DNA from: Hydra vulgaris
Taxonomy: Eukaryota > Cnidaria > Hydrozoa > Anthoathecata > Hydridae
Direction: 5' to 3'
Length of the DNA stretch: 64,000 nucleotides
Assembly (NCBI RefSeq): GCF_038396675.1
Contig: NC_088932.1
Span: forward strand, 23,994,501 to 24,058,500
This document shows, piece after piece, positions 38,961-60,587 of this stretch. The notes beneath the pieces were generated by a model. The model was not told where the DNA came from. It made no database searches and saw nothing but the letters and a program-made list of their open reading frames with translations. Numbering within the stretch: position 1 is the stretch's first letter; every line of letters starts with the position of its first letter. The position numbers and the translations under genes were made by a program.

Positions 38961-39317
38961 AAAAGTGTGAAAGATTAAGTGGCTATTCCACTTTTTTATG
39001 CACATTTAGCAGTTTGTGATGTCATAAGACAGCATTAGCAATGCAAAACAATTCAAAAGATCCGGAGAACTGTCCGAATGTTTTGTAAATCACCACTCAA
39101 AAATGAAATTTTACAAAAATACGTGAAAACTTAATACAATAAAGAACTCAAGTTAATGCTGGATGTAAAGACAAGGTGGAATATTCTTCTTGCAATGTTG
39201 GACCAATTTATTACATTAAAGGTATGTAAATTAAAACCATTTATGGATTTCAAACACAATTATATTAACAATATTTTGGAGGAGGAATATTTGTTGGTGC
39301 AAACTGTAGTAACGGCG
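38961..39317 (+). pseudogene. ZBED-type hAT relic, left part (split by Transib)
   Basis: Around 39140-39215 it encodes LKLMLDVKTRWNILLAML, the TRWN block of BED-finger hAT transposases, preceded by IRRTVRMFCKSPLKNEILQ. It continues (ILEEEYLLVQTVV) up to the Transib target site at 39313-39317 and resumes on the far side at 42814. Confidence 0.8.
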
Positions 39318-39609
39318 CACAGTGAATAGTTTCATACAATCTAGCTGGAAAAAAATATTTTGCTCACGAATTCCATTGTTCTAGTCTTGAAAGGTTGAAA
39401 TAAATAATATTTTGTTGTTTTATTGAAAAATTACCTTGGTTTTAATAACTTAAAAGTTTTTTAAGGAGGATAGGGGGAAAACCTCTTGCCTACAATCCCC
39501 CCATCCTCCCTCGTTGCAACAACCACTGTTATAATAAAAAAATGAAGTAAAAAAGAAAAAACATGTTCATGAAACAAGGATACATAATATTAAACAATAA
39601 ATTTTATAT

Positions 39610-42290
39610 TTAGTTATCAGAAAACTCGTCGTTTGTATCCACCAAACACTCATTACTTGAATCTTTAGATGACTCATTATTTGATTCATCGGACAAGTTA
39701 CAATTTCTTATTCTTGGAGCCGGATCAATCAAATTTAAAAGCTCTACTGGCAATTTTTTGCTTGTTTTTGCAGGCAGTTCTCTAAGTGAATTGATTACAG
39801 GGTCAGGTGTTATTAAGAGCATGTTCAGCAAATCTATATGTAGAAATACGTGACTTTTTCCAAGTATGATGTTCTCGAAATCTCCTACAATCTTCATTTC
39901 GTGCTTCTTTAGATTCTTATGAGAGCTGGCCAATGGGAAGAATACACGAATTTATAACTTCCGTGTTATGCATTAAAACTTTATGCACTGTAACAGGCAC
40001 GTAATACCACGAATATAAATGTAAATATAAAGTCTTTGTTTTAAAACAAAGTTTTTCAAATTTGACACGATCAATGTCATGGCCAGAAGATAGCGTTCTT
40101 AATAAAACACTAAATTTTTAAGTTAATTAGACGCCTAATCCTGTAATCTCTCCGCTCTTTTCTGGATTTAAAAAAAACCTGCGAGCTGTGTTGTCATCAT
40201 TTGTATTGCCATAATGAGGTTTCGGTCTATCCACAATAAGTCCTATTTGTTTTCTAAACTTTTGCCTAATCTCTTCCGAACGTTCTCTGATACGACATTT
40301 ATCCTCATTGCCTCTAACTTGTCACTTTTTAATGTCTAAACGGTAGCTAATATGTAGCAAGCATTCAAAAGTACGTATCCAAGCATGCAAGGTAGACAGA
40401 CCAAAATTGTAACTTTCTTTTTTATCAACCATACCTTTTAATTCACCATTCATCATTTTTAGAGTAGCACCACAAATCTAACATTTTTGTGTAGAGCGCG
40501 TATCGGTTAAATCGGGAAAAGTATGAAACTTTTCCGTCTGTCATTGTAAGTAAAAGATTGTGTTTCACAATAAATTTAAATTCACCAACAGTACACAGTG
40601 TTGAAAGAAGTTCAGATATTTCTTTTAAACTTTGTCAGTTTCTATTACAACAAATTCTTGTGTTTCTTTTGATAATATGAATTTAATTGGCCGGCAATAA
40701 AGTGTTGACGATGGCCGAGGATTTTGTCAAATAATAGTATTAGAGTCATCACTCAATCTCAACGGGACAAACGCAAACAAAAACAGCAACTCATCATTAG
40801 CATCGGAGTTCTCAAATCTTTGTTTATAGGTACTATGGCCAGAACTTCCGTCACATCCCCATTTGCTTATTAATGTAAGCGACAAATTAGAGGATGCATT
40901 TTTGGAAATTGACTTTGTTTCAGTGTTTCAACTAAAAGTTAAGTTGTTTTATTCAATATGGCTTGAAGTTTAATTTCAGCTTGTGTTTCTGAGATTGAAA
41001 TAAATTCTTATGGAGGGTAACACAACCTTTTGCATTTACATAAATTATAGTAAGACGGAAACACTTCAAGCCCTGCTTTCATTGACCACTTTCTTGTTTG
41101 TTTATAAGAGTGACTAGTACACTTGGAATCTACATAATAAGCAATTTACATCAGTAGATTTTCTTCGCTCTAAGGTTTCTGTACTTTTTCTAATAGAAGT
41201 AGCTAAGTTTCTTTGACCTGACAAACGATGTGCTATTTCAGCAGCTGTTGTTAATTCATTGGCACTCCGCGATTGCAATAACTCTTCAACTCTACGTCTT
41301 TCGGTTTCAAAGATGAGTCTTCAAAGTTTTTCTTTGGCCGACCTTGAGGCCGACTTCTTTCAGATGTTGTGGAAGTACAGGACCGAGGATAATCTATTTC
41401 GAATTCTAAATTACTGCCCTCTCACCAACTTTTATTTTTATTTAAAAAATGATCCATATTTCTATTGGCTGCATTCCACTTTTGGGCATATTTAGTGGAT
41501 ATTAGGGTGGCCCTAAAAACAATTTTTTTGAAAAAAATCTGCTCCCACCCTTTAAATGTGTTCTATATAATACAAAAACACTAGGTTTAAAATTTTGTTG
41601 AATAAAAAATATTTTTAGAGGTCCCCCAAAACCCTTTAATATTTAACGGGTCCTTAATATTTTAAAAAAAAAAGTTTCTCGAAAATAGGTCAACCTGGTA
41701 CTCAAATGAAGCGAAATTATATAAAAATTTCAAAAATAACATTCATTTTGAAATAATAAAGTTATTTTAGATTTTACTACGTAAAAATCTTGTTTTTTAC
41801 CAAAAAATGAAATAAGTGAATTTTTCATGATAATTGTGATAAATAAGTTTAAACTTCAAATTTATTTTTTAAAATGAATAATATTTTTGAAATTTTTATA
41901 TAATTGCGCTTCATTTGAGTACCAGGTTGACCTATTTTTGAGAAACTTTTTTTTCTAAAATATTAGGGACCCGTTAAATATTAAAGGGTCTTGGGGGACC
42001 TCTATAAATATGTTTTTTTCAAAAAAAATTTAAACCTAGTGTTTTCGTATTATATAGAACACATTTAAGGGGTTGGAGCAGATTTTTTTTAAAAAAGTTG
42101 TTTTAAGGACCACCCTAGTGGATATGCTTGCCATTTTTAACTTTATTTTTTTTCGAATTACTAATAACATCTTCTGTATTATAGTCTTTCAAAATAAAGT
42201 CGCACAGAAGAGAATTTCGTTCTTCCTTTGTATGTTTTTGCCATTCTTCAAATAACTTTGATTTCGTAATAAAATACACTCGGTCTAAAA
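39610..42290 (-). pseudogene. Transib (RAG1-core-related) transposase, inactivated
   Basis: Pieces in order, right to left: a likely N-terminal part at 42280-42130 (FEEWQKHTKEERNSLL) and MASISTKYAQKWNAANRN across the MITE insertion; GRPKKNFEDSSL near 41340; SKWGCDGSSGHSTYKQ near 40855 with the first catalytic Asp; LFLFAFVPLRLSDD, NPRPSSTLYCRPIKFIL near 40700; MTDGK near 40545 with the second Asp; ICGATLKMMNGELKG with the zinc-type cysteines near 40450; PHYGNTNDDNTARRFF near 40200; VHKVLMHNTEVIN and LPIGQLS near 39930. The codon after LPIGQLS is TAA (39917-39919) where Transib and RAG1 relatives have the catalytic Glu. After it ESKEARNEDCRRFREHH continues, then LLITPDPVINSL in another frame to the stop at 39610. 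Many stops and shifts; the 615-bp MITE lies near the N-terminus. Confidence 0.88.
41503..42117. mobile_element. MITE with long inverted repeats, 615 bp, 8-bp target duplication
   Basis: Ends TAGGGTGGCCCTAAAAACAA and, reverse complemented, TAGGGTGGTCCTTAAAACAA. Inverted similarity continues for over 200 bp on each side (for example AGGTCAACCTGGTACTCAAA matched by its complement), so the element is nearly one large fold-back. Flanked by an exact 8-bp duplication GTGGATAT at 41495-41502 and 42118-42125, as for hAT-type MITEs. It is inserted in the Transib transposase gene. Confidence 0.94.
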
Positions 42291-42813
42291 AAAATTAAAT
42301 AAAAATGAAACGGGCAGACGCGGGCAGCCAAATTTTTATATTTAGACGCCTTATTGTTGTGGTTATAATATATAAAAAAATCAGCCTGGATATATTTGGA
42401 TAAAATTAGTTACACGCTTTGAAAATAAAAAAATAAAAAAAAGTAACTTTAACAGTTTTTAAATCTACAGAAAATCATTTATGCCAATTATTTTAAATAA
42501 GTTTTCAATAAAATACAAAGTACATACCCTCTAATATAAAATTCATCACAGCAGAGTTAATTATTATTCACAATAAATTAGTTATACGTTATTGTTACAC
42601 AGCAAAAATGCAGCTATTTTTTTTACAAAATTATGTTTATCTTTAAGTGACACTTGAGCGCTAATGATTTTACACTTAAAAATGCGTGCACTAATTAATA
42701 TTTTGAAATTTTCTCTAGAGAGTATTCAGTAATATTATGCGAATATCTACTAATTGATTCCTTGAATTGACTTTTGTCCAGCTGGATTGTATGAGTCGGT
42801 TCACTGTGCGGCG

Positions 42814-43230
42814 TTACAAAGAAAATAACTAGGAGTTGAAAGACTTGGCCGATGCAACGCATCTCTACTTAATGCAGAGGGTGTGTTACAGTTTATATTA
42901 GATGTTTTGCGTAAAAATAAAGATTGCTTTTTGGTTAAAACGCTGCAGTATGACAAACAAAGAATTGTCGAAAGACGGAATAAAAATTGGCTTACTAAAA
43001 CATTTAAACAATCCATCAAATTATAAAAACAAATCAGTACTGCAAACTAAAAACTTGTTTTCTAAGTTATTTGTTAAAGATATTGGTGGTTCCTCTAATT
43101 TTGAAGAATTAGAATGCAGAAATGATGGGACTGAAACGTCGTTTATGGCCGAACCATTAATAAAAACATTTTATAAATTTTTTGTTTTGAGAGTCTTAGT
43201 TTCTCTGGTTCGCTTCCATTTAAGTTAATG
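42814..43230 (+). pseudogene. ZBED-type hAT relic, right part (split by Transib)
   Basis: Continues the relic at 38961-39317: LGVERLGRCNASLLNAEGVL and QFILDVLRKN, then IVERRN near 42965, and in another frame LLKHLNNPSNY. These correspond to the ExxKLGVExLSRxDATLLTAxxx and following helix region of BED-type hAT transposases. Stops interrupt it. The reading joins that of the left part if the Transib and one CGGCG are mentally removed. Confidence 0.78.
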
Positions 43231-57455: not shown

Positions 57456-58908
57456 TATATATGTATATATATTATATATAACATATATATTATATATATA
57501 TCAGGGCTTGTGAAGAAGAAAATCATCAAGCGTGTTATATCGTGCTCGTAAAATTAGAATATGTTTTCATCGAGCGTGATTATGTGCGCTTGAGATAACG
57601 TCGGCGAGCGCGATTATGAAAATTGCTGAAAGCCATGCTCATAAAAAGTTTTTTATTTTTTATATCTTTTTTAATTTGTTACATAATTCTTTCAGCAAAA
57701 ATGTTTGAATTAGTATCACACTCATAAAACTACTTCAACGAAGTAGATTTTCATACTTTCAAGCTTCTTGTATATTGTCAGATCGCGATTTTATTTTTAA
57801 CTATTTATGTTATAAAAAAATAATATCAAACAAAAACGCAACTTCTTATTGGTTTAGTAATGAAGTATAATTTAGTGACTTTGTTTTGCTTCGTTGTTTT
57901 GATATATGTATTTTAAAATGTTACGCTGTAAACTTAATTAATGGTTAATGGTTTTTATGTTTCTTGATATTTTTTATTCAAATTAGTTATTTAATTTTTT
58001 TCAAAAATTTCTTTTTTAAATTACGTTTTTTTTATCTTAAAAAATAACACAAGAATAATTTGAAAATCTTCTTTTTAAAAAACTATTCATTATAAGTTAA
58101 ATAACAGATTTTCCCCTCAACTGTTGTCAATGGTGTTTCCTCTTCAACATTGTCGAAACTGAATGCACCTAATTCATCAGTCATGTCTTCATCAGCACTG
58201 TCTATTTCATCATCGTCATCAAAAATTTGATTTGTAATCAATGTTGTTGCTGTTTTCATATAGTCAACTGGATCATCATCAACTTGAACCACTCGTCTCT
58301 TATTCAAATAAATTTCTTTAGCTCTCTTTTTAATCACGATTATTTCTTCTTTTGACCATCTTCCATGGTTTCCTAATATCATAATGCTATCATTTAGAGT
58401 GTCGTGATTCATAGATCAACGTTGATCTGATAATATGCTAGTTACTGTGCTAAACATTCGCTCCACGCTTGAGTTTTATCCGAAAATAATCAATATAACT
58501 TTTAATAAAATAGGAAACTTTGACTTTTTGTACAAGAAAGTCAACCTCCAAATTTCTTTTGTCTGGCGATTGCGTACCATTGCTTCAAGATTGGTTCTTG
58601 AATGAATCAAAAATAGTTTCCATTCTTGGAAAACTTTTCATTAAAATTGGAATGTTCCAATGTTGTTTTAAAATGCGTGGACAAAAACTTTATTTCTTCC
58701 AAGCCAAACTCTTTGTTGTCAGTCCAGTTCTGCGGGTCGATGAGCCGCATGGCATGATAAATCTCAGACTCTTCCTTTATGGTTGTGAATCTGCTGTTTA
58801 ACGTATTTATAAGTCTTGGTATAACCTTTCTCTTAATATTTCTGACTAAGCATAATGCTTGATCTACGTCAACCAAAGTCATATCTAAGTTTACTATTAT
58901 ATACTAAA

Positions 58909-60587
58909 TTTTACTAATCTATTATAAATTTAACTTTAAATCGAAAAATATAATACATCATTTACGAAAAATGTTTAGGTAAAGAGCTGTAAGATCAATG
59001 GTGTTATAACGATCAAACGTAATGAAAATGGCGCTAGCGGGCATGAATTCGTAAAATACATTGCGATGGCTGTGAGTGAAAAATGTGTCAATATCCTGAA
59101 GGAAGCTCAATTCTTCTCAATTTTGTGCAATGCTAGCCAAGCTCAAAAAACAAAGAAAGAAAAACAGTTAGTTTTGGCAAGAATTGAAAGATGTGGTTCT
59201 CCTTTTTATATGGTTCTGGATCTAGTTGATATTGATAGGTTTGGCGGAGGAGAAGCAGACTCCTTTGTCAAGGAAATCAATAACATTTTTGAAACTGGGG
59301 AATTTAAACTAGACTCCAATGATTACAAAAATAAATTAGTCAGTATAACATCCGATCCGATTTAGTAAAAATATTACTGGGGTGTTTTTGTTTGTCGCCA
59401 AAAAAAAACACCCCAGTAATATTTTTACTAAACTGACCAGACAGTGTTTCAGGTAAGTTATGTTTGCCCTCAATAACCATGTAACGTGTGACATAGCTAT
59501 ATAAAAATTCTAAATCTGTATCGATTTCTTCGAGCTTCAACTCTAGTTCTAAATTTGTTCAGTTGATTGTAGCTAGAATATCATGCGGCAACAGTTCATT
59601 TGCTTCAAATACTTTCGATGCTGGCACAATGATAAACAGCAACAGTGCAAAGATAGTTATATGATTTGAATTTCTTTTTAACCCTTGAACCTTTGCTCTT
59701 GTAGTTATAGGGTTTTTCCGTTCATTTACGTAGTTCTCATAGGCCACTATATAAGCTGGCCAGGACTCCAATAAATTCTTAAAAGCTCTTATATGATGGC
59801 CAACAAACCTCGTTTCTGTTAGTTTTGGTAGAGTGTAATGCGTAGTACCTAAAATATCTAATCTAGTTTAATATTTAAAAATTGAATAATTTACATTTAT
59901 CTTAGAAAAATCCCAGATAATGTAAGAAAGGTAATTTTGTAATGTGTTTTCACTATGAGCCAAGTTCTTGGAAAATAAAATGATTAACTAAAATATAAAT
60001 TATGGTTTTAAGCCACAACATTTTACCGCAAACTTTGCGGTAAACTTTACCTAAAGCTGCAGATGTATTTATTACTTCTTGTTTTATTTTCTCCGAGTTT
60101 CGAAGCATATATTTTCCAAAGTTTACACTTGCACCATCGGATGTTATACTGACTAATTTATTTTTGTAATCATTGGAGTCTAGTTTAAATTCCCCAGTTT
60201 CAAAAATGTTATTGATTTCCTTGACAAAGGAGTCTGCTTCTCCTCCGCCAAACCTATCAATATCAACTAGATCCAGAACCATATAAAAAGGAGAACCACA
60301 TCTTTCAATTCTTGCCAAAACTAACTGTTTTTCTTTCTTTGTTTTTTGAGCTTGGCTAGCATTGCACAAAATTGAGAAGAATTGAGCTTCCTTCAGGATA
60401 TTGACACATTTTTCACTCACAGCCATCGCAATGTATTTTACGAATTCATGCCCGCTAGCGCCATTTTCATTACGTTTGATCGTTATAACACCATTGATCT
60501 TACAGCTCTTTACCTAAACATTTTTCGTAAATGATGTATTATATTTTTCGATTTAAAGTTAAATTTATAATAGATTAGTAAAATTTA
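58909..60587. repeat. Inverted duplication, about 447-bp arms
   Basis: 58909-59355 and 60141-60587 are inverted copies; the encoded 98 residues from MAVSEKCVNI to NKLVSITSD are identical in both. The spacer is about 785 bp. At the inner edge of the left arm lies a further hairpin (59361-59432). Confidence 0.95.
59361..59432. repeat. Hairpin at the inversion junction, 29-bp arms
   Basis: 59361-59389 (TTTAGTAAAAATATTACTGG then GGTGTTTTT) and 59404-59432 are exact reverse complements with a 14-nt loop. The right arm belongs to the transposase coding sequence, so the left arm is the copied one. Confidence 0.92.

Follow-up and report, generated by a model that had tools for sequence, protein, structure and literature searches.

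The element at 39313-42813 of the window, the 64,000-nt stretch of Hydra vulgaris DNA analysed here, is almost certainly the dead remnant of a Transib family that was once autonomous (RAG1-related DDE transposons of the cut-and-paste type) with bipartite ends. It is a fossil, its superfamily is known, and its kind of ends has likewise been described before: RSS-like and asymmetric Transib ends have been published, in a study that also covers Hydra Transibs (PMC9435367). By itself the window copy adds just one more fossil family; the surrounding genome is the better object, with two classes of end spacing, short and long ends joined in its most abundant families, and symmetric ends in others.

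From left to right, the element consists of CGGCG, CACAGTG-24-AAAAAAATA, about 3.4 kb of interior sequence, the inverted ACAAAAGTC-24-CACAGTG, and a second CGGCG (Table 1). Its inverted repeat is 46 nt long and 85% complementary, duplications counted in. The first-pass annotation had described CACAGTG heptamers, 24-bp spacers, an exact CGGCG duplication and A-rich nonamer blocks at both ends, and a check of the sequence recovered each of them in place. The spacers of the window family are symmetric (24/24) and do not form the 12 + 23 bp pair of a 12/23-type RSS. The nonamer-like block, in an AT-rich stretch, is identical to the RSS nonamer at 6 and 7 of 9 positions in the window copy, and at 5 to 7 of 9 among the families compared. 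Two things had been overlooked, a foreign insert in the interior and a broken coding frame: the copy in the window is dead, its gene broken by 18 stops as well as frameshifts and a hAT-like MITE nested inside it.

Table 1. Features of the Transib element and its nested insert (window coordinates).
Feature	Position	Strand	Basis
Left 5-bp target site duplication CGGCG	39313..39317	.	sequence; same as 42809-42813
Left heptamer CACAGTG	39318..39324	+	sequence
Left 24-bp spacer	39325..39348	+	sequence; kept across family copies
Left nonamer-like block AAAAAAATA; family majority ACAAAAATA	39349..39357	+	sequence, family copies
Broken Transib transposase gene	39610..42318	-	four tblastn pieces, different frames, 18 stops
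8-bp duplication GTGGATAT flanking nested MITE	41495..41502, second copy 42118-42125	.	sequence
Nested 615-bp MITE, presumed hAT-like, foreign to Transib	41503..42117	.	arms, copy comparison, relatives elsewhere
Right nonamer-like block ACAAAAGTC	42769..42777	-	sequence, family copies
Right 24-bp spacer	42778..42801	-	sequence
Right heptamer CACAGTG	42802..42808	-	sequence
Right 5-bp target site duplication CGGCG	42809..42813	.	sequence

We searched the whole genome (911.5 Mb, 15 contigs) for relatives of the element. At least 119 pieces match it, those of the nested MITE counted, a lower bound because 40 of 2931 candidates were scored; the Transib part is mostly 84-92% identical. Thirty-nine loci were fetched, of which 32 contain Transib sequence and seven the nested MITE alone, and together with the window this gave 33 family copies to read. 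That other copies would share the ends had been put forward as a check on the element, and they do: ends were located in 30 of the 32 fetched Transib copies, with majority sequences CACAGTGAATCGTTTCATACAATCTAGCTGG-ACAAAAATA and CACAGTGAATCGACTCATACAATCTAGCTGG-ACAAAAGTC (that is, CACAGTG-24-ACAAAAATA and CACAGTG-24-ACAAAAGTC). Genome-wide, the 31-bp family end is matched 117 times when 3 mismatches or fewer are allowed, and the same pattern read backwards 0 times, so the family end is not due to chance. The heptamer CACAGTG is present in 31 of the 49 family ends found, and a few relatives bear CACAATG or CACAAAG instead; the heptamer does therefore drift. None of the 32 fetched copies is intact, the longest open piece being 270 aa.

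Both ends are available in 18 copies (17 fetched plus the window), where the 5-bp duplication is exact in 8, has one mismatch in 4, and shows two or more differences in 6; the last group, with poorly matching flanks, includes copy L034, which has lost its left heptamer. The first-pass annotation had proposed checking whether the duplications are consistently CGNCG-like. This is borne out in part: all eight exact duplications of the window family fit C[AG]N[CT]G, and just four of the eight are CGNCG itself. Among 17 exact duplications of other families, CGNCG was seen in one and a fit to C[AG]N[CT]G in seven. At the sister-family loci L055/L057 and L054/L061 the outer 10-base flanks are shared pairwise (with the heptamer CACAAAG in L055/L057), which suggests duplicated blocks, not separate insertions.

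Ends of this construction are abundant well beyond the window family. The pattern CACAGTG-N(6 to 34)-TGGACAAAA has 1903 matches in the genome, compared with 6 when it is read backwards. With heptamer positions 4 and 5 left open there are 2287 matches against 239 in the control, and CACAGTG makes up about 93% of the excess. The canonical heptamer at both ends, previously singled out as a special data point, is thus not exceptional to the window copy, because some 1900 ends in the genome have it. By spacer length, 818 ends fall at 12-13 bp (control 0) and 1025 at 21-24 bp (control 3). In the first 69.3 Mb of the contig labelled C1, the two classes comprise 177 ends, with spacers of 12 bp (5), 13 bp (72), 22 bp (71), 23 bp (8) and 24 bp (21). 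Neither class includes one end from the first listing, whose spacer is 10 bp. Because CACAGTG and TGGACAAAA are fixed in the pattern, the census misses L079, L100 and L102, which carry TGGCCAAAA, and L101, which carries AAAAAA; where the two lists compared overlap, they agree in 99 of 99 cases. Literature searches, made in a partial collection of papers, listed no title or abstract devoted to counting spacers in a cnidarian genome.

The census bears on the alternative that survives best, namely that the nonamer resemblance is a by-product of AT-richness and that the heptamer alone is common to these ends and RSS. In its favour are the AT-rich surroundings, the AAAAAA of L101 where others have ACAAAA, and the ends of HzTransib, which are said to have little or no nonamer similarity (PMC8289069). 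Against it, TGG[AC]CAAAA recurs among families with different spacers, and of the 1903 ends whose CACAGTG and TGGACAAAA stand 9-37 bp apart, 1843 are spaced at 12-13 or 21-24 bp, the other 23 distances within that range totalling 60. Common ancestry of the families could partly explain both the recurring block and the spacing, and we consider this alternative unlikely, if still worth keeping in mind.

The blocks SKWGCDGSSG, MTDGK and CGAT, reported earlier, were found on the minus strand, though in readings split by stops and frameshifts; in this frame-broken remnant the catalytic motifs CDG, MTDGK and the E of EARN are still recognisable. For the 270-aa open piece, which comes from a sister copy, the HzTransib match has E 8.5e-66 over 212 residues, compared with E 0.52 for RAG1L. 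L079, an open relative from another family, gives 5.1e-119 for HzTransib and 6.6e-7 for RAG1L, and with a profile built from five relatives belonging to other Transib families the values are 1.3e-168 for HzTransib, 1e-8 for RAG1L and 4e-7 for RAG1. The protein searches that had been proposed as a possible refutation thus rank Transib first, followed by RAG1L and RAG1. In Pfam there was no match for six window pieces and four pieces of family copies, and a RAG1 match under the cut-off for two of the five relatives. All five relatives have the catalytic D, D and E motifs of a DDE transposase. This homology to known Transib transposases, the 5-bp duplications, and terminal inverted repeats that start with CAC and include an RSS-like heptamer are the marks of the Transib superfamily, and all were found here. 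The claim of a Transib with heptamer, spacer and nonamer-like ends therefore holds, on the HzTransib matches and the ends shared by the family.

A RAG-like transposon (ProtoRAG or RAG1L-RAG2L) would also combine such a heptamer with a RAG1-related protein, and RAGL transposons have been reported from cnidarians (PMC9435367). We nevertheless regard this origin as highly improbable, as HzTransib outscores RAG1L by 65 orders of magnitude with the family piece and by more than 100 with the relatives, and a single gene was noticed in the window element on inspection of its readings. Membership of the RAGL/ProtoRAG group was rejected, the protein being nearer to Transib than to RAG1 or RAG1L. Chapaev elements have CAC-type ends and a 4-bp duplication. 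A Chapaev-type element with CAC ends is just as hard to credit: Chapaev is a related clade (PMC4411706), but exact 5-bp duplications are present in 8 of the 18 two-ended copies and in 14 of 16 pairs of other families, and the protein is HzTransib-like, on which grounds we rejected Chapaev membership for the window family.

In our reading of the element as a Transib, the bipartite ends, the duplications and the Transib identity are directly observed. By this account, the transposase would bind each end at two sites, the heptamer, where it would cut, and the nonamer-like A-rich block, and the element would have inserted with a 5-bp duplication. By analogy with HzTransib and RAG, the A-rich block may be bound by an NBD-like GRP region, and cleavage may proceed through hairpins with synapsis of the two ends. 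In RAG1 the nonamer-binding domain is marked by GRP, and Transibs of both subgroups possess an equivalent, a GRP-bearing NBD (PMC9435367). Upstream of the core, four of five relatives carry a GRP-type motif (GRPL in L079, GRPP in L102, GRK in L078, GWP in L055), which was absent from the L101 reading; the window remnant has QGRPKK as its GRP-type motif. Because the AlphaFold model of one relative is poor (mean pLDDT 51), the NBD idea is without structural support here.

The foreign insert sits in the upstream part of the window transposase reading. It has arms of about 251 nt that are 92% complementary, ends in TAGGGTGG...CCACCCTA, and is flanked by an 8-bp duplication (GTGGATAT in the window; TTAAACAT for the copy in L041). 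We take it to be hAT-like from its end letters and duplication length alone, by general rules for such elements. Among the matches listed, Transib copies aligned across this position lack the insert, and relatives of the insert elsewhere are 96-98% identical. A hAT-like MITE that entered an older Transib recently would fit these observations. Six of the seven fetched loci of this MITE lie within TA-repeat arrays. Elsewhere in the window, 58905-59356 and 60136-60587 form a 452-nt inverted repeat, 100% complementary, with 779 nt between the arms.

When the flanks of the Transib itself (39135-39312 and 42814-43026) are joined with one copy of the duplication, a single reading frame runs across the insertion site with one stop. 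Judged by eye, this target sequence looks like a remnant of a hAT-type transposase. Pfam returned no hAT-type family for the target-site pieces or the joined reading, and a PDB search gave weak matches, the best at E 0.36.

How the two spacing classes are combined could be counted on C1 (0-69.3 Mb), where 51 pairs of neighbouring ends face inward within 8 kb: 46 are 13/22, three 13/24, one 24/24 and one 13/13. A short end is joined to a long one in 49 of the 51; four further close neighbours do not face inward. When spacer classes were shuffled among these pairs, the maximum number of short/long pairs in 100,000 trials was 41, compared with the 49 observed, a figure to be taken as a description and not a probability because copies of one family are not independent (most of the 13/22 pairs come from one or two related families). 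Most pairs are about 3.2-3.4 kb long, and a second class measures 1.7-1.9 kb. Flanks were read for 16 hand-picked pairs of the 51. The 5-bp duplication is exact in all eleven 13/22 pairs, in two of three 13/24 pairs (the third has one mismatch) and in the 24/24 pair; the 13/13 pair has no exact 5-bp duplication. The 13/24 pairs of L107-L112 (C1, 53.19, 63.37 and 64.45 Mb) have spacers exactly 11 bp apart and the short-end block ACAAAACCT. L094/L095 (C1:26877590-26877905) is a 316-bp MITE with 13/13 spacers, and in its flanks a 4-bp duplication, GATC, fits better than one of 5 bp.

Some of these families retain long open frames. The abundant 13/22 family is represented by L078 (G000:C9:36600808-36605412), with a 661-aa open frame and an exact duplication; L101, also 13/22 with an exact duplication, has AAAAAA instead of ACAAAA and a 568-aa open frame. 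Both elements have their short end on the upstream side of the transposase. Two others are 22/22 (L079, with one mismatch in its duplication, and L100, with an exact one), and in L102 one end was found, with a 22-bp spacer. A tree of eight proteins separates the families by spacing into three supported clades (24, 22 and 13/22 bp), in an alignment where the L018 row fills 40% of the columns and with a single known end for each of L055 and L102; spacing therefore follows the transposase clade in this small set. In the few families compared, 24 bp goes with the clade of the window element, 22 bp with a second clade and 13/22 with a third.

The two classes lie about one helix turn apart and are mostly found as short/long pairs, and therefore a physical rule resembling 12/23 may govern cnidarian Transib synapsis in the absence of RAG2, and the transposase clade may set the spacing; we put this forward tentatively, at somewhat less than even odds. 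The short/long pairing is counted at the level of the genome, and its enforcement by the transposase may be a candidate reading of those counts. The symmetric clades (22/22 and 24/24) in the same genome are natural controls for such a pairing rule. With both symmetric and asymmetric families, some with open frames of more than 600 codons, the rule becomes testable in a relative of RAG1 that is thought to work without RAG2. This touches an old question, the origin of the two-part signal and of the 12/23 rule of V(D)J recombination. The view of Transib ends as relatives of RSS reportedly originated with Kapitonov and Jurka in 2005.

The vertebrate RSS resembles the ends described here in its CACAGTG heptamer, its ACAAAA-type block, and its short and long spacers about one helix turn apart. 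It differs in spacer length, the spacers here being 13/22, 13/24, 22/22 or 24/24 and not 12/23, and in context, the ends here flanking a transposon in which no RAG2 gene was noticed on inspection. A review notes that the heptamers and nonamers of some Transib elements are the very sequences that RAG recognises, and that their spacers vary in length (PMC6941560). HzTransib (PDB 6pqn and others) belongs by sequence to the same transposase family as the window family and is described as likewise having RSS-like heptamer ends; little or no nonamer similarity is reported for them (PMC8289069), whereas the ends here bear an ACAAAA block.

Closest by host are the Transibs of Hydra vulgaris itself. 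Tao et al. (2022) included them in their tree and described the ends of Subgroup II as both symmetric and asymmetric (PMC9435367). Two of them, HvuTransib-7_HMp and HvuTransib-9_HMp, are of the same superfamily (Tao et al., 2022; PMC9435367); the window family, compared with the named Hydra Transibs by description, may or may not be one of them. CMC-Transib is listed among the expanded groups of the HydraT2T_AEP assembly (912 Mb, 15 chromosomes; PMC12220107). In insects, Transib5 of Drosophila and Transib2, N1, N2 and N3 of Anopheles are described as having a heptamer and a nonamer with 12/23 (+/-1) asymmetry (PMC8355894). The 13/22 and 13/24 families of Hydra resemble this asymmetry, whereas the window family differs in being 24/24 and in its cnidarian host.
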